Below are positions 1 through 60,667 of a stretch of 64,000 nucleotides of DNA, one piece after another. The DNA is taken from positions 310,001 through 374,000 of the forward strand of contig NZ_JACIJO010000001.1 of the NCBI RefSeq assembly GCF_014206875.1, in the 5' to 3' direction. Each line of letters opens with the position of its first letter. The first letter of the stretch is position 1. A model generated the notes under the pieces. That model was given only the letters and a program-made list of their open reading frames with translations. It was not told where the DNA came from and searched no databases. Source of the stretch: Algoriphagus iocasae (GTDB taxonomy: Bacteria; Bacteroidota; Bacteroidia; Cytophagales; Cyclobacteriaceae). Both the position numbers and the translations under genes were made by a program.

Positions 1-372
1 GATGAGGTGTATTTCCAGTCTTTCCATATGGATCTCACGAAAGCAACCACCAATTCTTTGCCTGTAGCCAATGCGACGGGTAGAATTGCTTTTGGAAATG
101 ATAATCTATATTATTTAATCACTAGTACTGGTTGGCCGGAATATCAAGATGGGGTATCCAGAGTTTCTGTATTAGGTTCAGAGCTTGATTTGGATTGGAT
201 TACCGGTTCAGGTTTTTATGGAATAGGTTATGACAAAGCCAGAAATGAACTTTACTTGGCAAATTCGAATGGTTTCCAGGGGAACGGAACTGTCACAGTT
301 TATGATGCGGATGGTACCGAGAAAAGAGATTTTGAAGTTGGAAGAGGTCCTTCAGGGTTTCTATTTTATTAA
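1..372 (+). CDS. C-terminal part of a YncE/DUF5074-like beta-propeller protein (partial at window edge)
   Basis: The reading frame is open from the first base and ends at TAA 370-372, so only about the last 123 codons are present. The visible part has propeller-blade features: a segment that reads as a displayed value (NLYYLITSTGW), then GFYGIGYDKARNELYLANS, then VTVYDADGTEKRDFEVGRGP. This resembles the C-terminal blades of YncE/DUF5074-type surface propellers common in Bacteroidetes. The internal GTG at position 7 is unlikely to be the start. Function and substrate cannot be told from this fragment. A 125-bp repeat element begins 15 nt after the stop codon. Confidence 0.6.
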   Translation, partial: DEVYFQSFHMDLTKATTNSLPVANATGRIAFGNDNLYYLITSTGWPEYQDGVSRVSVLGSELDLDWITGSGFYGIGYDKARNELYLANSNGFQGNGTVTVYDADGTEKRDFEVGRGPSGFLFY

Positions 373-387
373 TAAATGAGAATTGAT

Positions 388-512
388 AAAGAGGCATTTT
401 CTAAAGTCTAAAATTTGTCAGCCTGAGCGGAGTCGAAGGCCTAATGAAGTGAGATAACTGACATTTCGACTTCGCTCAATGTGACAAAAACCAATTTTGA
501 GAAAGCCACTTT
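388..512 (+). repeat. 125-bp REPIN/MITE-like element, copy 1
   Basis: The element starts with AAAGAGGC and ends with AGCCACTTT, degenerate versions of the 15-bp terminal inverted repeat of copy 2 (25021-25145). Inside are two head-to-head REP arms, TGAGCGGAGTCGAA (424-437) and TTCGACTTCGCTCA (465-478), flanked by TTTGTCAGCC and ATGTGACAAAAACC. Copy 2, reverse-complemented, has the same 125-nt length and is nearly identical outside the central 18 nt. The element lies between the stop of the upstream propeller gene and the stop (518) of the convergent HepT-like gene, so it may also end transcription. Confidence 0.85.
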
Positions 513-5182: not shown

Positions 5183-5202
5183 TCCTATCAATAAATCTTT
5201 AA

Positions 5203-5230
5203 AAACCGGGTTGAGAAGCCCGGTTTTTTT
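5203..5230 (+). terminator. Rho-independent terminator of dxr-rseP
   Basis: Stem AAACCGGG / CCCGGTTT with loop TTGAGAAG, followed by a run of T. Stem and loop sequences are identical to those of the terminator at 6559-6587. Confidence 0.9.
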
Positions 5231-6529: not shown

Positions 6530-6558
6530 GTTTATCGGTTTAAGATAATGAGCTAAGA

Positions 6559-6587
6559 AAACCGGGTTGAGAAGCCCGGTTTTTTTG
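6559..6587 (+). terminator. Rho-independent terminator after paralog 1
   Basis: Stem AAACCGGG / CCCGGTTT, loop TTGAGAAG, then seven T. The hairpin core is identical to the terminator behind rseP, so paralog 1 is bracketed by two copies of the same terminator. Confidence 0.9.
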
Positions 6588-24887: not shown

Positions 24888-24950
24888 TGGATAGGTTTGA
24901 GGAACTCTTTAAAATACTTTTTAAAGAAGTTGGTGTTTTTTAGAGAGCCG

Positions 24951-24958
24951 CAAAGATA
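24951..24958 (-). promoter_or_regulatory. -7 element of the SulP promoter
   Basis: CAAAGATA on the plus strand reads TATCTTTG on the minus strand and is followed by GC, a perfect Bacteroidetes -7 box. The -33 position has only a partial match. Confidence 0.45.
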
Positions 24959-25020
24959 GATAAAAATGAACAAACCGAATTTTATTTGGTAATTGTGGCC
25001 AAAATTCTCTTAAAAAAACA

Positions 25021-25145
25021 AAAGAGGCTGTCTCATAATTGGTTTTTGTCACATTGAGCGAAGTCGAAATGTCGGTTATTCCCTTTCAAAAAGCCTTCGA
25101 CTCCGCTCAGGCTGACAAATTTTAGACTTTTGAGACAGCCTCTTT
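25021..25145 (-). repeat. 125-bp REPIN/MITE-like element, copy 2 (inverted)
   Basis: Perfect 15-bp terminal inverted repeats, AAAGAGGCTGTCTCA (25021-25035) and TGAGACAGCCTCTTT (25131-25145), enclose two head-to-head REP arms (TTGAGCGAAGTCGAAA and CTTCGACTCCGCTCAG). Read on the minus strand it begins 17 nt after the stop codon of the sortilin-like gene and ends in TGTTTTTTTAAG, so the outer stem has terminator character. It equals copy 1 (388-512) in length and is nearly identical except for the central 18 nt and part of the terminal arms. Confidence 0.9.
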
Positions 25146-25162
25146 TATTGAATGCAAATAGC

Positions 25163-28100
25163 TTACTTCACAAACAGAATTCCGATTCCAGCCTCTTGAA
25201 CCAATTTATTGAATTTTGGGATTTCTTCTTGAATTAACCGATCTCCCTCTTCTTTCAATTTGTCCCATTCTTTTTCAAGTTCTGCTCTTCTCATTTTTGA
25301 TCCTTCGTTGATCTTTGGGATAGAACTATTCGATTGATTGATCACATAGAAATAATTTGCCGTGAATTTGTTCGGGAAATTTTCCACATCATCATAGGCT
25401 TTTGATTTTCGCTGGATCATCGATTCATCCCATTCTTTTAGTGCTTTCATCAATTTTTGACCGGCTTCCTCGATGGTTGAGTAATCCGTTTTTCCTTTTA
25501 TTTTTTTGAGGAAAGCGGCTAATTGATCTTGGTATTCTTTCTCTTTGTTGACCATGTCATGCATCAATGTGAGCTCTTGCTCCATGCTACCCATGAACTC
25601 ATGGTATTCCTGATATTGTGAGTCACTGATTTCATACAAAGGGTTTTCTAAAATTACTCCTGTCGTTTCTGCGTTACCATTTTCAGTGGTCAGTAAGATC
25701 TTGTATTCACCAGGAATTGCAGAATGCCCGCTATAACTAGCTTCTATGTAGGCACCATCTACCCCAGGCAAGGTTGGGTATTTTAAATTCCATACAAATC
25801 GGTTGATCCCTTTCTTCTTTGGAAGCACCGGTTCAGGTGATGGTCCACCATCATAGGATTTAAAGTTTTCATCCTTTTTAGAAGTAAATGACCTGACAAA
25901 TTCTCCTTTAGAATCTCGTATTTCCAAAGTCAGATCAGTAGAATCAGAAAAATCCTCGGGTAAATGGTAGTAGATGACCATGCCACTGGCCGGATTGACG
26001 CCTGCAAAATCATCAGTGCCATCAAAATTCTCAATATTGCCATTCATTCTACTGTACCAATTTCCCAAAATCACCTCATCAGGCTGATAAATTTGTGCTG
26101 CCTCTACTTCTTTTTGGGCTTCTCTCACCAAGTTTAAATCATCTAAAATCCAGAAGGATCTTCCAGCAGTGGCTACAATTAAATCGCCATGAGCTTGGAT
26201 CAAATCAGTGATTGGGGTGATTGGAAGGTTCAACTGAAAGCTTTCCCAATTGGCGCCACCATCTCTGGATAGATACATGCCGGTCTCTGTTCCTGCATAT
26301 AGCAAATCTTTTACTTTGGTATCTTCCCGGACCACTCTCGTGAAAGCTCCATAAGGAATGTTTGAGCTGATATTAGTCCAGGATTTTCCATAATTGGTTG
26401 TCTTATAGAGCCCAGGCGTTTTGTCATCAAACTTATACCGAGTGGTAGCAATATAAGCGGTTGCAGGATCATGCGGGGAAACTTCAATCGCATTGATCAG
26501 GCATTCTTCCAGACCTTTTGGAGTAACGTTTTCCCAATTTTCGCCCCCGTCTTTGGTTAGGTAAACGAAGCCATCGTCGGAACCAGTCCAGATATATCCT
26601 TTTTCGTGTGGGGATTCCTTGACATAGGCAAGTGTGCCGTAGTTTTCTGCTCCCACGGCCTCATTGGTGTATGGGCCGCCTCCATTTCCTTGTTTTTCAT
26701 CTATATTTCTGGTCAAATCAGGAGAGATAACCTCCCAACTTGTTCCCATATCCTCAGTTTTGAGGAGGTATTGTGCGCCATGATAAAATGTGTTTTCTTC
26801 ATGGACTGACCGGATAATTGGGGCGTTCCAGTTGAAAAGGTATTTCATGTCCCTTGCTTCTCTACCGAGATATTGAATGGGCTCAATCATGATATTGGTG
26901 CTCCCATTGGATTTCATGTCCAGAACTTCAATTGTTCCTAGATAACTTCCTCCTAAAACATAGCGTGGATCATCTGGGTCAAAGGCCAAAAATGCGCTTT
27001 CGCCTCCAGCGGCATAATTCCAATGTTCAGTAGTGATACTGCCTCTTCCTAATGCGAGACTATTGATGACAACAGAAGTATTGTCTTGCTGTCCACCGTA
27101 AATTCTATAAGGGAATTGATTGTCCACATTGACCCGGTAAAACTGGGCTGTTGGCATGTTTTCTTGTGTGGACCAGGTTTGAGCTCCATCAAATGAAATC
27201 GCTGCTCCACCATCATCGGCCAAAACCATGTTATTAGAATTTTTTGGATTGATCTAAAGGTCATGATAATCCCCATGAGCACTAGGAAGATTTTCCCAGG
27301 TTTTGCCACCGTCAATGGAGCGCAAAGCAGGCGCGCTCATGACATAGACGGTGTGCTCGTCATTAGGATCCGCGAAAACTTCAATGTAATACCAAGCTCT
27401 CTGTACCAGTCTGTTGTCGCCGCTAACCATTGACCAACTTTCGCCGGCATTATCAGAGACAAAAAGCCCGCCTTGGTCTTTGTTGGTATCTGATTCTATC
27501 AAAGCATAAACTTTGTTTGAGTTAGCTCTGGAGACAGAAATCGCCATTTTTCCTTTTTCCTCAGGAAGTCCTTTGTGAATTTTCTTCCAGGTTTTCCCTG
27601 AGTCGGTTGACTTATACAGCCCACTTCCTGGTCCGCCGCTAATCACTTTCCAAGGAACCCGCTGATGTTCCCACATGGCTGCATAAAGTATTTCCGGATA
27701 ATTCATGTCCATGGACAATTCCACAGCTCCGGTCTTTTCATCTACAAATAATACCTGCTCCCAAGTTTTTCCCCCATCTATGGACTTGTAAATTCCTCTT
27801 TCCGGGTTTGGAGCATGGAGGGCACCTTGTGCGGCAACATAAACAATGTCTGGGTTGGTCGGATGAATCTGAATTCTGGAGATATGCTGGGTTTTTTCAA
27901 GTCCTAGCTTTTTCCATGTCTTTCCTGCGTCAGTAGATTTGTAAACCCCGTCTCCATGGGAGGTCATTACCCCTCTTGGCGCATGTTCACCCATTCCGAC
28001 ATAGACAATATTTGGGTTGCTTTCAGAAACTGCAATGGCTCCCACAGAAGAAGTGGTGAAAAATCCATCTGAGATATTTTTCCATCTCTGACCTGCATCG

Positions 28101-49402: not shown

Positions 49403-52006
49403 ATGAAAAGAAGATCCGCCGTCAAGGCTATGGCCCTCAGTTCCGTTTCACCTTTCTTTTTCCCGCAGGGATTTACAGGAATAAAAAAACTTTTTGGAGA
49501 AGCAGAAACTGCTTTCAAAAGCAATTGGGAAAACTGGCCAAATATGAAATGGGTAGGGCCTGAGTTTTGGGCTAATAGACTTCAAGACTGGGAAATTGTT
49601 GACGGAAAAGCCTGCTGCGTGATTGCTGCTCCTAACCGTACACTTCATGTTTTGACACATCAATTGGGTGATTCCAATGGCTCATTCCAAGAATCAGTAA
49701 CGATTCACTGGGATCAAGAAAATCAAAAAGGAGGTGCTGAAGTTTATGCCGGTTTTAGACTTGGTGCCAAAGGAAGGTTTGAAGACTATCGCTCTGCCGC
49801 AGTTTTTGGTGAGGGATTGGATGTGGGAATCAATGGTTTGGGACAAATAAAACTAGGTGAGAAGTTGAGCGATTCCACAGTGGATCTTTCCAAACCGATT
49901 TACCTGTCTCTTAAGGCCGAACCTAAGCAAGAGTCTTACGCTCTAAAAGTAAAGGCTAGCAATTCATCTGATTCTGGGGAAGGAGTGGAACTGGAACTGA
50001 GCGGAATTGAAACAGAGCAATTGAGAGGGAATATTGCTTTGGTCTCCCATGCGGGAAAAGGTTTCCAGAAAGATGCCCCATTGGTTTCATTTTCTGATTG
50101 GGTATTTAGGGGAGAAAAAATCACCGAAAATGGCGATCAGCTTTTTGGGCCAATTTGCTTTGCGCAATACACTCTTCATGATCAACTCTTAAAAATGACT
50201 GCCCAATTGGCCCCAGTCGAGGAAATCAAGGGTTTGCAAATTGCTTTACAGATTAAAGAAGGGTCGGATTGGAAAACGATTCAAACTTCAGATATCGATC
50301 CATTGGGCAGAATAGCCCAATTTAGAATCCCAGATTGGCAGTCAACTGAGGCAGTTCCATACCGGGTTTTTCTTGAAATTCATTTGAAAAACAAGAAGCA
50401 AGAATTCGCTTATTATGGTGAAATCGCTGCTGAACCAAAATCCCTGGAAGATTTGAAAGTTGCGGTTTTTAGTTGCAATGCAGACCATGGTTTTCCTGAT
50501 GAAGAAGTTAGCATTCATGTCAATAAACATCAGCCAGACATGGCCTTATTTCTTGGAGATCAGTTTTATGAGGGTACCGGAGGATTTGGTATACAGACTG
50601 ACCGAATTGAGAAATCAAGTCTTGATTACCTTCGAAAATGGTATATGTTCGGCTGGTCTTATCGAGACATTTTCAGAAGTATTCCTGCGGCATTTATTCC
50701 AGATGACCATGATGTCTATCATGGAAATGTTTGGGGAGCTGGCGGTGAGCATGCGCCAACTGATAAGGGTTGGGGATATATCGCCCAAGATGAAGGAGGG
50801 TATAAAATGGCAGCGCAATGGGTAAACATGGTTCAGGCTACGCAGACCAGCCATTTGCCTGATCCTTATGATCCGCGACCTGTCAAACAAGGAATCAATG
50901 TTTATTATACCGATTGGAATTACGGTGGGGTAAGTTTTGCGATTTTAGAAGATAGAAAGTTTAAATCAGCACCTAAAAAAGTGTTGCCTAAAGAAGCTCA
51001 GGTTCAAAATGGGTTTATTCAAAATAGGGACTTCGATATCAAGAAGCACTATGATATTGACGCAGAGCTTTTGGGAGAAAGACAGATGGAATTTCTCGAA
51101 AAATGGGCTGCCGATTGGGGTACAGATATCCAAATGAAAGCGGTTTGCTCACAAACCAATTTCTGTACAGTGGCTACACTTCCCGTAGGAAGCATTATCG
51201 ATGAAATTGTACCTAGTTTGGCAATTCCTGAAAAAGGTGAATATGTAGATGGGGATGCACCTACTTCTGATATGGATTCAAATGGCTGGCCGCAAAAAGG
51301 AAGAGATGAGGCATTGCGTGCAATTCGTAAATCTTTTGCCCTTCATATAGCGGGTGACCAGCATTTGGCAAGTACCGTGCATTATGGTGTGGATGAATTT
51401 AGAGACTCAGGATTTGCTTTCGCTGGACCGGCTTTAAACAATCTTTGGCCGAGAAGATGGTGGCCTCAGGTTCCAGCTGGCCATCAGCCGATTCCGGGCA
51501 AAGCCAAGAATACTGGTGATTTCATAGATGGTTTTGGAAATAAAATGACGATTCATGCTGTGGCAAATCCTTATAAAACGGGCTTCGAACCTTCAAGAAT
51601 TTATGACCGAGGAACGGGATATGGAATCATTACTTTTGAGATGGCGTCTCGAAAAATGAAAATCGAATGCTGGCCAAGAAATGTCGACCCGATTTCAAAG
51701 CCAGATGGTCAGTATGATGGCTGGCCGATAGAAATATCGCAAGAGGAAAATTACGCCAGAAAAGCAGTTGGTTATTTACCGGAGATTGTGGTCAAGGGTG
51801 CAACTCAGCCAGTAATCGAAGTTTGGAATGAAAAAACTGGCGAATTGGAATATGCATTCCGAATGAAAGAAGACAGGTTTACTCCAAAAGTCTTTTCAAA
51901 GGATACTTATCGAGTGGATTTGATTGATTCAGTATCAGGCAGAAAGCTCTCAAAGAAACAGCTGGAAATTTCTCAAGGAAGTGCGATAGAGGTTGATTTT
52001 AGTTAA
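49403..52006 (+). CDS. PhoD-like phosphatase (alkaline phosphatase D family), exported
   Basis: An 867-residue protein. The N-terminus MKRRSAVKAMALSSVSPFF looks like a Tat or Sec signal with basic start. A non-catalytic domain (about 30-320) precedes the metallophosphatase part: VFSCNADHG, LFLGDQFYEGTGGFG, IPDDHDVYHGNVWGAGG and LHIAGDQHLASTVHYG, which supply the metal ligands of PhoD-type enzymes. The C-terminal about 130 residues form a beta-rich domain. PhoD enzymes are Ca/Fe-dependent phosphomonoesterases or diesterases with broad range. It is alone, divergent from the PqaA-like gene. A REP-like repeat lies 104 nt after its stop. Confidence 0.9.
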   Translation: MKRRSAVKAMALSSVSPFFFPQGFTGIKKLFGEAETAFKSNWENWPNMKWVGPEFWANRLQDWEIVDGKACCVIAAPNRTLHVLTHQLGDSNGSFQESVTIHWDQENQKGGAEVYAGFRLGAKGRFEDYRSAAVFGEGLDVGINGLGQIKLGEKLSDSTVDLSKPIYLSLKAEPKQESYALKVKASNSSDSGEGVELELSGIETEQLRGNIALVSHAGKGFQKDAPLVSFSDWVFRGEKITENGDQLFGPICFAQYTLHDQLLKMTAQLAPVEEIKGLQIALQIKEGSDWKTIQTSDIDPLGRIAQFRIPDWQSTEAVPYRVFLEIHLKNKKQEFAYYGEIAAEPKSLEDLKVAVFSCNADHGFPDEEVSIHVNKHQPDMALFLGDQFYEGTGGFGIQTDRIEKSSLDYLRKWYMFGWSYRDIFRSIPAAFIPDDHDVYHGNVWGAGGEHAPTDKGWGYIAQDEGGYKMAAQWVNMVQATQTSHLPDPYDPRPVKQGINVYYTDWNYGGVSFAILEDRKFKSAPKKVLPKEAQVQNGFIQNRDFDIKKHYDIDAELLGERQMEFLEKWAADWGTDIQMKAVCSQTNFCTVATLPVGSIIDEIVPSLAIPEKGEYVDGDAPTSDMDSNGWPQKGRDEALRAIRKSFALHIAGDQHLASTVHYGVDEFRDSGFAFAGPALNNLWPRRWWPQVPAGHQPIPGKAKNTGDFIDGFGNKMTIHAVANPYKTGFEPSRIYDRGTGYGIITFEMASRKMKIECWPRNVDPISKPDGQYDGWPIEISQEENYARKAVGYLPEIVVKGATQPVIEVWNEKTGELEYAFRMKEDRFTPKVFSKDTYRVDLIDSVSGRKLSKKQLEISQGSAIEVDFS

Positions 52007-52109
52007 AGCGACGCTGTCACTTAGGCTTTTCATTTGTCAGTCTGGGACTTAAATATTCTTCGAACCTACAAAATGGAAATGATAGGAATTCGTCTTAAAA
52101 ACGGGGTTT

Positions 52110-52181
52110 GGGTCACCCTGAGCGGAGTCGAAGGGTCCTCGATTTCGAGACTCTCGACTCTCAAGTGCTCAATGTGACAAA
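52110..52181 (+). repeat. Diverged, partial copy of the REP doublet
   Basis: CCTGAGCGGAGTCGAAGG (52117-52134) is the same left arm as in the 125-bp element. The right arm is decayed but still ends in GCTCAATGTGACAAA. The outer terminal repeats are absent. It is located between the convergent PhoD-like and DoxX-like genes, again in the 3' region of a gene. Confidence 0.7.
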
Positions 52182-52214
52182 CAGCATAATTATGCCAGCC
52201 TCGTCTTTGGTTTT

Positions 52215-52679
52215 TTACGAAACCAGCTTTCCTGTAAATCCTTCAAATTTCATAAGAGATTTAGTTTCTCTTTCCAGTTCCAATTGCTCCTGTTCGTAGC
52301 TTTTTGAAATAAACATTGCCAGCGAAATCAACGCAAGATTCTTGATGATGTATTGACCTACCAAGGTAGGGGTGAACCAGGTTTGCCAAATTTCTTCTGT
52401 TAAAACCAAAACTGGAAGAAAAGTGGTAACCATGTGAGCAATGAGTATGTAAAGAGAGATTTTGCTCAGTTTTGGAAAAAGCCAAAGGATGCCTAATGCA
52501 CATTCAAAAAGGCCAAACCCTCTGCAGAAAAGATTGAAATCAATCCAAAAACCAATGGTTTCATTGAAAAGATTTTGCACTAATGCTTCCGCTGGGGAAA
52601 ACCCCAACACCTTTAATATACCAAACCAGAAATAGATTACGAATAAAGAGAAGCGGCCAAGTAAAGCGGAGGTTTTCAT
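52215..52679 (-). CDS. DoxX-like membrane protein
   Basis: A 154-residue protein with four membrane helices: LGRFSLFVIYFWFGILKVLGF, LFECALGILWLFPKL, ISLYILIAHMVTTFLPVLVL and YIIKNLALISLAMFIS. The early WFGILKVLGFSPAE segment is typical of DoxX/DUF417-like proteins. The molecular role is unknown. The C-terminal tail is charged and cytoplasmic. It is convergent with the PhoD-like gene and has no operon partner. Confidence 0.78.
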   Translation of the reverse strand: MKTSALLGRFSLFVIYFWFGILKVLGFSPAEALVQNLFNETIGFWIDFNLFCRGFGLFECALGILWLFPKLSKISLYILIAHMVTTFLPVLVLTEEIWQTWFTPTLVGQYIIKNLALISLAMFISKSYEQEQLELERETKSLMKFEGFTGKLVS

Positions 52680-59602: not shown

Positions 59603-59704
59603 ACTGATCGTGCCTTTGGCACTCTTGGGTTCTTTTTCGCTCCTATTCCCCGAATTTCGCTTCGCTGTATTCGGGGTTGATACTGAAAATGCCTATGGCA
59701 TTTA
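59603..59704 (+). repeat. RAYT-flanking repeat A, left copy
   Basis: It holds GTGCC-TTT-GGCAC, then CCCCGAAT...ATTCGGGG and GCC-TAT-GGCA hairpins. About 100 bp, nearly identical to the right copy at 60317-60419 in the same orientation. Confidence 0.85.
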
Positions 59705-59740
59705 GGTTTGTTCCTTAAGTAGGGTTTTGTTTTGAATCCT

Positions 59741-59832
59741 TGCCAACGGCAAGTTAGGTAACTGCCCAGAATGTAATTCTGGGTTATAAAAAGTTTATAT
59801 TTAAATGAAGTGCCAAAGGCACGATCGGTATT
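59741..59832 (+). repeat. RAYT-flanking repeat B, left copy
   Basis: It contains GCC-AAC-GGC, CCCAGAAT-GTA-ATTCTGGG and GTGCC-AAA-GGCAC followed by GATCGGTAT. The last hairpin with its flank is the reverse complement of the first hairpin of repeat A (ATCGTGCCTTTGGCACT). The right copy is at 60565-60653. Confidence 0.85.
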
Positions 59833-59854
59833 GTAAACTTAATTTTTCTTATTT

Positions 59855-60301
59855 ATGCCGCAGTCCTTATCCAAAGTTTATCTGCATATTATTTTTTCTA
59901 CCAAAGAAAGAAAACCACTTATCACTACTGAAATAAAGCCGATTTTGCAGGCCTATGTTATTAAGCTCGGAGCCAATCTTGCAGTTTTTACAGAGGAGAT
60001 ATATGCCAATCCTGACCACATTCATTGGCTATGTACTTTGCCAAGAACTCTTTCAATTGCTGATTTAGTGCAAAAAGTCAAGATATCCAGTTCTAATAAA
60101 ATTACCTCTCTTGGATTAAATAATTTTCATTGGCAAAAAGGCTATGCAGCTTTTTCCGTGAGTCAATCGAAGTTGAGAATTGTGAAGAAATATATTCAGA
60201 ATCAAGAAGAACACCACCGCAAACAAACATTTAAAGAGGAGTATGTTCGATTTTTGGAAGAGTATAAAATGGACTATGACCCAAAATATGTGTGGGATTG
60301 A
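59855..60301 (+). CDS. REP-associated tyrosine transposase (RAYT; Y1/IS200-like)
   Basis: A 148-residue single-domain Y1 transposase. The metal-binding HUH motif is His55-Ile-His57 in ANPDHIHWL, the N-terminal pattern KVYLHIIFSTKERKPLI is typical, and the catalytic tyrosine is probably Tyr113 in RIVKKYIQNQEEHH. It is not part of an IS200 element with simple ends; instead duplicated hairpin blocks lie on both sides, the hallmark of RAYT genes that act on REP sequences. All motifs are intact. A start at ATG 59855 begins 22 nt after repeat B. Confidence 0.92.
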   Translation: MPQSLSKVYLHIIFSTKERKPLITTEIKPILQAYVIKLGANLAVFTEEIYANPDHIHWLCTLPRTLSIADLVQKVKISSSNKITSLGLNNFHWQKGYAAFSVSQSKLRIVKKYIQNQEEHHRKQTFKEEYVRFLEEYKMDYDPKYVWD

Positions 60302-60316
60302 TTTTAATAAATCTTT

Positions 60317-60419
60317 ACTGATCGTGCCTTTGGCACTCTTGGGTTCATATTCGCTCCTAATCCCCGAATTTCGCTTCGCTGTATTCGGGGTTGATACTGA
60401 AAGTGCCTTTGGCATTTTA
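60317..60419 (+). repeat. RAYT-flanking repeat A, right copy
   Basis: Begins 15 nt after the transposase stop codon with ACTGATCGTGCC and repeats the hairpins of the left copy (59603-59704) with only a few differences. Same orientation. Confidence 0.85.
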
Positions 60420-60564
60420 GCGCAGAATTCTAAAAAGTAAATTAGGATAAAATTATCAGTCTTATTTTGGTTGAAATTAGACTTAGTATTGCCATTCTTT
60501 TCCTCTTAGAAGAGATTTTGAAAAGGTTAAATTCATTTTAGACAGTTGGAGCAGGGGTAACATT

Positions 60565-60653
60565 TGCCAAAGGCAAAACCAGTAATTGCCCAGAATGCAA
60601 TTCTGGGTTTTAAAAGATTTATTTTAATAAGAGTGCCAAAGGCACGATCGGTA
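60565..60653 (+). repeat. RAYT-flanking repeat B, right copy
   Basis: TGCC-AAA-GGCA, CCCAGAAT-GCA-ATTCTGGG and GTGCC-AAA-GGCAC hairpins, matching the left copy at 59741-59832. About 145 bp of unrelated sequence separate it from the right copy of repeat A, against about 36 bp on the left side. Confidence 0.82.
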
Positions 60654-60667
60654 TTTTTTAATAGAAG

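Follow-up and report, generated by a model that had tools for sequence, protein, structure and literature searches.

A 125-nt REP-bearing element behind stop codons in Algoriphagus iocasae is very probably an IS1182-family miniature transposon placed in terminator hairpins

Results

Two copies of a 125-nt element and a degenerate third

The window analysed here, a 64,000-nt stretch of the Algoriphagus iocasae genome (contig NZ_JACIJO010000001.1, positions 310,001 to 374,000), contains two sequences, at 388-512 and 25021-25145, that are reverse complements and represent one 125-nt element. BLAST aligns them at 88% identity over 125 nt, and a second comparison at 86% over 132 nt, in agreement with a first-pass annotation of this DNA that had described two inverted, nearly identical copies of equal length. 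The annotation had also proposed terminal repeats and inverted REP arms around a spacer, and the parts are as it described them: a terminal arm, AAAGTCTAAAATTTGTCAG, a REP arm, a variable centre, an inverted REP arm, ATGTGACAAAAACCAATT and a second terminal arm, the outermost part of the element being the inverted repeat AGAGGCTGTCTCA. The features are as follows.

370-372, + strand: stop codon of the upstream gene, 15 nt ahead of copy 1
388-512, + strand: copy 1 of the probable IS1182-type MITE, REP1 side first, between convergent genes
388-402, + strand: left terminal inverted repeat arm of copy 1, diverged (AAAGAGGCATTTTCT)
416-440, + strand: TGTC-tagged REP hairpin 1 of copy 1
461-486, - strand: inverted TGTC-tagged REP hairpin 2 of copy 1
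498-512, + strand: right terminal inverted repeat arm of copy 1
518-934, - strand: convergent gene, its stop codon 5 nt from the far end of copy 1
25021-25145, - strand: copy 2 of the probable IS1182-type MITE, terminal repeats perfect
25021-25035, - strand: far terminal arm of copy 2, followed on the - strand by the T-rich tract TGTTTTTTT
25047-25072, + strand: TGTC-tagged REP hairpin 2 of copy 2
25093-25117, - strand: TGTC-tagged REP hairpin 1 of copy 2
25131-25145, - strand: terminal arm of copy 2 on the stop-codon side
25163-27229, - strand: gene with its stop codon 17 nt from copy 2
52010-52202, no strand assigned: third copy, degenerate and longer (193 nt), with weak terminal arms and a REP doublet

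The annotation placed the start of the element 15-17 nt after a stop codon, which is what we measured (15 nt from the stop codon at 370-372, and 17 nt from the gene end at 25163). The third copy is flanked by two stop codons, one that ends at 52006, 3 nt ahead of it, and a convergent one at 52215, at a distance of 12 nt. The orientation of the copy at 388-512 relative to "the gene" is ambiguous, since the genes on both sides converge. No Rfam family was matched in the window at gathering thresholds. A further module (TCTTAAA...TTAAAAACGGGGTTT) splits the REP inside longer copies (window positions 52040-52112, L010 and L016), which suggests a nested insertion.

Distribution of the element and of its ends

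The A. iocasae genome (5.43 Mb, 11 contigs) contains at least 29 BLAST matches to the element at E<=0.001, with 40 of 61 first-look candidates scored. At least 5 of these matches span at least 119 of the 125 nt, and partial and expanded copies are present as well. Within the genus the element was found in 12 of 35 other genomes at E<=1e-12 (at most 15 candidates scored per genome), and at the same threshold in 0 of 22 genomes from other genera of the same order. Given the multiple matches in its own genome and those in 12 of the 35 genus genomes, the element is not a chance arrangement. Its relatives remain ~121-125 nt long despite 14-26% divergence, a few being longer through inserts. One genus copy (L073, genome G010) is letter-identical to a copy in Algoriphagus mannitolivorans (L159), and the same REP core within the same ends also occurs in Pedobacter glucosidilyticus (L140 and L144).

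We also searched with the ends themselves. The terminal-repeat core, with one mismatch allowed, has 77 matches in the A. iocasae genome; 8 of the 30 inspected have a partner arm, and these represent 6 distinct elements, each of which encloses REP-type sequence by eye. A GTDB scan for paired ends 80-110 nt apart returned at least 117 stretches, and the titles of 80 of these 117 name Bacteroidota and Ignavibacteria/Chlorobi, and also Bacillus methanolicus and Anoxybacillus. The sample used below consists of 104 distinct elements among the matches listed, in a length window of 106-136. The ends are conserved across phyla and the interiors vary by lineage: the REP doublets within the same ends differ among Bacteroidota, Ignavibacteria/Chlorobi and Bacillaceae, and many are CGTC-REPs of the textbook type. 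A terminal-repeat variant, GGCTGTCCCA, was found in 1 of 395 genomes as a single 121-nt element, a number too small to test the length grid described below again.

The ends are those of IS1182-family transposase genes

The inverted ends AGAGGCTGTCTCA also flank intact transposase genes, in L211 (genome G019, same genus) and L186 (genome G667), within elements of ~1.8 kb. Both proteins belong to the IS1182 family, scoring 431 and 435 bits with NCBIfam NF033551 against a cut-off of 270, and the insertion sequence of L211 begins 17 nt behind a stop codon. Because the same ends bound IS1182 transposase genes, the 125-nt element is best filed as an IS1182-family MITE; as in other MITEs, it is short (125 nt), has no coding capacity and occurs in multiple copies. 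We consider it very probable that the element is a non-autonomous IS1182-family transposon that is put by a transposase acting in trans into terminator hairpins, with the REP doublet as its cargo.

A match to the L211 protein at E<=1e-20, a threshold that would miss more distant IS1182 genes, was present in 8 of 35 element-bearing genomes, several of these matches being fragmentary. In 6 of the 8 the same end sequence lies beside the transposase match, once with one mismatch. A search of the A. iocasae genome with PF05598 and the L211 protein found no partner transposase; the copies there are therefore probably relics, unless a transposase acts on them in trans. Mobilisation would require an IS1182 transposase that, acting in trans, recognises the inverted ends. 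In the autonomous IS1182 elements the end sequence is repeated internally, immediately ahead of the right end (L211:3000-3150 and L186:6370-6415), so that their right ends resemble intrinsic terminators for the transposase gene.

IS1182-type MITEs are already known from an archaeon. According to the accessible text of that report, ISMac2 derivatives of 160 and 169 bp occur in Methanosarcina acetivorans, and they are alike to the present element in being non-autonomous derivatives of the same IS family; the same portion of the report mentions neither a length grid, nor REP cargo, nor terminator replacement (PMC3852290).

Copies lie behind stop codons, at sites where relatives mostly have terminator-like hairpins

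The nearest gene end was a stop codon on at least one side for all of the 28 genus copies considered (28 of 32, the 4 partial copies being dropped), and a stop codon lay within 40 nt in 22 of the 28; for the exceptions L066, L072 and L089 the nearest one was 224-481 nt away. The first-pass annotation had claimed the same orientation relative to the gene for each copy. With 9 of these 28 copies in one orientation, 5 in the other and 14 at convergent sites, a fixed orientation is not supported. Of the 104 GTDB copies, 83 have 600 nt or more of sequence on each side, and these were considered as well. None of the 83 lay inside a gene, and 57 were located within 40 nt of a stop codon, compared to 65 of 245 random intergenic points. 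Likewise, 45 copies but only 39 of the 245 random points fell between convergent genes, while a single copy, against 55 random points, fell between divergent genes.

Orthologous sites were sought in 58 genomes using the C-terminal ends of nine A. iocasae proteins that precede an element. Forty stretches, hand-picked among the matches listed, represent eight of the nine loci (none for L010). One was too short, and one of the 39 scored has an element of its own and was scored as having no hairpin, leaving 38 that are element-free. In 25 of the 38, compared to 100 of 780 shuffles, a simple detector placed a terminator-like hairpin no more than 90 nt from the stop codon, and 7 of the 8 loci had at least one element-free orthologue with such a hairpin; none was detected in the other 13 of the 38, including five of five at L013. 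The existence of orthologous sites without the element supports the mobility that the first-pass annotation had supposed, and its proposed preference for the 3' side of genes and for terminators is borne out by the placement counts and by the hairpins at empty sites. It had named random placement, or a lack of empty sites, as outcomes contrary to its main idea, and the outcome on both favours that idea.

The clearest pair of occupied and empty sites is that of L005 and its relative L334. The occupied site reads TAA, AATAT, the element (ending GCCTC) and TTTTATTTAGAATCAT, and the empty one TAA, AATTAAGAGCCGGTACATTACCGGCTC and TTTTATTTAGAATCAT, where a plain terminator, AAGAGCCGGTACATTACCGGCTCTTTTATTTAGAATCAT, is present. 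In L005 the stem-loop is lost, the U-tract abuts the right end of the element and no duplication is visible, the exact joint being ambiguous within the shared CTC. The orthologue of the L004 locus in genome G021 (L331) has an element in the opposite orientation that lies ahead of an intact terminator and does not replace it.

A choice of terminators and other hairpins as targets is already published for an IS1182-family element, IS1272. In the accessible text of Furi et al. 2016, IS1272 inserts in hairpins, several of them confirmed terminators, and its insertion is blunt, deletes part of the stem-loop and leaves no target duplication (PMC4923244). IS1272/TnSha1 thus share with the present element the transposase family, the hairpin target, the partial loss of the hairpin and the absence of a duplication. 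In contrast to that IS and the 3-kb element built on it, both described there from staphylococci (PMC4923244), the element studied here is 125 nt long, non-coding and found in Bacteroidota, and its own ends could re-form a terminator. In the reading favoured here, the transposase would put the element into the intrinsic-terminator hairpin just behind a gene, and insertion would remove the stem-loop and leave the U-tract next to the new right end.

Around four of the elements (L122, L143, L147 and L209, the first three titled Ignavibacteria MAG_28) the flanking sequences are inverted relative to each other, for example CCCCGACCTAA/TTAGGTCGGGG, as would fit insertion inside a hairpin.

The element itself folds into a hairpin

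Folded as RNA, the element forms one long hairpin with the paired ends at its base (-43 and -59 kcal/mol for the two copies, z -6.4 and -9.5). T-rich sequence follows the hairpin in copy 2, and in 66 of the 83 GTDB copies the 6 nt ahead of the element include four or more A, or the 6 nt behind it four or more T. A built-in terminator scan of 24900-25300, which permits only loops of 3-8 nt, returned no terminator. Compensatory change in the outer stem is modest (both sides altered in 6 of 15 pairs, with 87% of cells paired), so that selection for terminator function after insertion is at most weakly indicated.

After insertion, the element's own ends would form a replacement hairpin ahead of the kept U-tract. 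The gene would then probably keep a working terminator, which would explain why insertions at such positions are tolerated. A mobile element could in this way settle in a gene-dense genome with little harm, replacing a terminator and offering its own hairpin instead.

Element lengths are quantised

Measured from AGAGG to CCTCT, element lengths cluster near 100, 111, 121, 132 and 142 bp, with steps of roughly one helical turn. Among the 104 distinct listed GTDB elements (length window 106-136), 25 are 110-111 long, 30 are 120-123, 39 are 130-134 and 10 lie elsewhere. With one entry per 80% cluster (56 entries), the Rayleigh R was 0.66 at 10.5 bp and 0.70 at the best period, 11.2. Uniform simulations, 3000 in each case, attained the best-period value 0, 0 and 20 times for 56, 35 and 19 clusters (80%, 70% and 65%, respectively); clustering was by average linkage, single linkage at 65% having chained nearly all elements into five groups.

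Two wider scans of 395 genomes each, of which 11 and 7 had a match, add peaks at 100-101 and 142. In these scans the first places per genome were listed. Because some of their genomes are also in the first sample (L186 comes from G667, and L115 from G766), the two sets are only partly independent. Counted once per genome and length, the 18 values have a best period of 10.7 bp at nearly the same phase, a result matched by 3 of 4000 simulations. On a grid of 100/110.5/121/132/142.5, chosen post hoc, the distance to the nearest grid point is no more than 2.5 nt for 16 of the 18 values and for 49 of the 56 cluster values. The 19 values between 140 and 200 nt exhibit no periodicity, and the claim is therefore limited to short elements.

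Easy closure of a DNA below its stiffness length requires that its ends point in the same direction. The element falls below this length, and only those lengths that place both ends on one face of the helix would be mobilised; we infer that helical phasing is the cause of the quantised lengths, which suggests that the two ends of a DNA so short and stiff have to lie on the same side of it. The alternative that the lengths were inherited by common descent from a few founder elements is unlikely, albeit far from negligible. Most of the 111-nt class does belong to a single homologous family (25 sequences in one cluster), and lengths are heritable. Yet the peaks survive the reduction to one entry per 80%, 70% or 65% cluster, and the additional peaks at 100-101 and 142 fall outside the range of the first scan. 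Moreover, different REP families with different tag offsets have one common total length, which speaks against simple descent, and the gaps in the Algoriphagus alignment, their placement being that of the aligner, suggest compensating indels.

Helical phasing has a precedent in the IESs of Paramecium, transposon-derived elements that likewise include sizes below 150 bp with a helical period. In the accessible part of that study, some 45,000 elements have a 10.2-bp size period equal to the DNA helical repeat, which is attributed to looping, and helical-twist experiments with bacterial transposons are also described (PMC3464196). The IESs are excised in a eukaryote by a domesticated piggyBac transposase (PMC3464196), whereas the elements considered here are far fewer and are bacterial MITEs. 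No report of helical size classes in bacterial MITEs was found among the open-access titles and abstracts listed, and the words 'IS1182' and 'helical' are both absent from the main text of a 2024 review of prokaryotic MITEs (PMC10969869). As data from nature and from several phyla, the lengths suggest that a bacterial transposase can use a short element only with its two ends in helical register.

REP doublets as cargo

Hairpins tagged CGTC or TGTC were present on both sides in 7 of 30 elements of the 121 class, 14 of 42 of the 132 class and 0 of 27 of the 111 class, and one side or both carried such a hairpin in 14 of 30 elements of the 121 class and 29 of 42 of the 132 class; the frequencies in shuffled interiors were 0.000 and 0.020-0.027. 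In the 132 class, 11 of the 14 two-sided elements have stems starting with AT and scoring at least 7 on both sides, a close match to the CGTC-REP definition in the accessible text of Di Nocera et al. 2013 (PMC3733652). There, CGTC-REPs have a [C/T]GTC tag, an 8-9 bp stem starting AT and a 4-5 nt loop, occur in inverted pairs mostly 3' of genes and, in one species, sit as pairs within 41-bp palindromes; no transposase was found there for the superfamily (PMC3733652). The tag, the inverted pairs and the position 3' of genes are common to those dimers and to the present doublets. The REPs described here differ in lying inside IS1182 ends, and the window copies, which have the TGTC tag, differ in their weaker and shorter stem (4-6 bp, beginning GC or CA) from the textbook type.

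The A. iocasae genome contains 41 REP matches, compared to 0 with a reversed-pattern control. Thirty of these were fetched. Eleven matches, representing ten distinct elements, are bounded by IS1182-like ends that exceed the shuffled level, which is not the case for the others. Since some REPs are outside IS ends, either the ends decay or REPs also move otherwise. A literature search returned no match to the REP string itself, and no link between CGTC-REPs and IS1182 was found among the open-access titles and abstracts listed.

An inverted pair of TGTC/CGTC-tagged REP hairpins would thus ride between the ends as cargo, and the IS1182-type MITE is proposed as a carrier for CGTC-REPs, the mobiliser of which was left open in 2013. 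More speculatively, CGTC-type REP doublets may have spread across phyla as cargo of terminator-seeking IS1182 MITEs, with lone REPs as remnants of MITEs whose ends have decayed, a transposition efficiency dependent on helical phase and a length spectrum that records the geometry of the transpososome; we hold this wider scheme to be possible but doubtful.

Alternative origins of the element

The interior of the element is an inverted REP doublet, as in REPINs, which Bertels and Rainey (2011) reportedly described as inverted REP pairs forming miniature mobile DNA that is moved by RAYTs (REP-associated tyrosine transposases). REPINs are not known to carry IS1182-type terminal repeats. If the element were a REPIN moved by a RAYT, its outer arms would merely be conserved flanks. 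The A. iocasae genome does have six Y1 transposase genes, one of them in the window at 59855-60301, but none of the six has this REP core within ~1.5 kb (the best match having 3 mismatches in 13), and they adjoin other repeats. We rejected a RAYT-mobilised REPIN on finding no cognate Y1 gene flanked by the same REP among these six, and a TGTC tag in place of the GTAG type. Furthermore, the ends match IS1182, and conservation across phyla extends to the ends but not to the REPs. In the accessible text of the CGTC-REP study, GTAG-type REPs are those linked to tyrosine transposases, and CGTC-type REPs are reported not to flank such genes (PMC3733652). Mobilisation by a RAYT is accordingly very improbable.

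Two further explanations dispense with transposon ends or with a choice of target. The arms could belong to a pre-existing terminator family into whose loops REP doublets were inserted; they do form a hairpin beside T-rich sequence, behind stop codons. The terminator stems at orthologous sites are nevertheless unrelated, and the same arms recur in far-removed phyla and also bound IS1182 genes. A plain terminator family was set aside after inspection of 30 of the 77 arm matches, the partnered ones (8 of the 30, or 6 elements) all enclosing REP-type sequence by eye, and we regard this origin as extremely improbable. Alternatively, selection may have retained a random intergenic repeat, one without any insertion preference, for a role in termination or mRNA stabilisation. 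The great stability of the hairpin and the A- or T-rich flanks of 66 of 83 copies would agree with this, but a terminator-like hairpin is already present at 25 of 38 empty sites, so that the element would bring little gain at most of them, and an IS1182-family element is known to target hairpins, as far as the accessible report of it goes (PMC4923244). Selection alone is highly improbable.

Other repeats and hairpins

Five single REPs form a tandem array with a period of ~205-209 nt elsewhere in the A. iocasae genome (C2:780856-781710; L017 and L021-L024), and IS1182-like ends are absent around the four of these that were checked. Two identical 29-nt terminator-like hairpins lie behind neighbouring genes in the window, at 5202-5230 and 6558-6586. 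The Y1 gene in the window (59855-60301, IS200-like/RAYT-type) is flanked, within 59603-60655, by a different REP family, AGTGCCAAAGGCACGATCGGTA, together with a 101-nt direct repeat. The other five Y1 genes of the genome are also near repeats, and two of them, L031 and L032, which are 96% identical, have a common repeat type.
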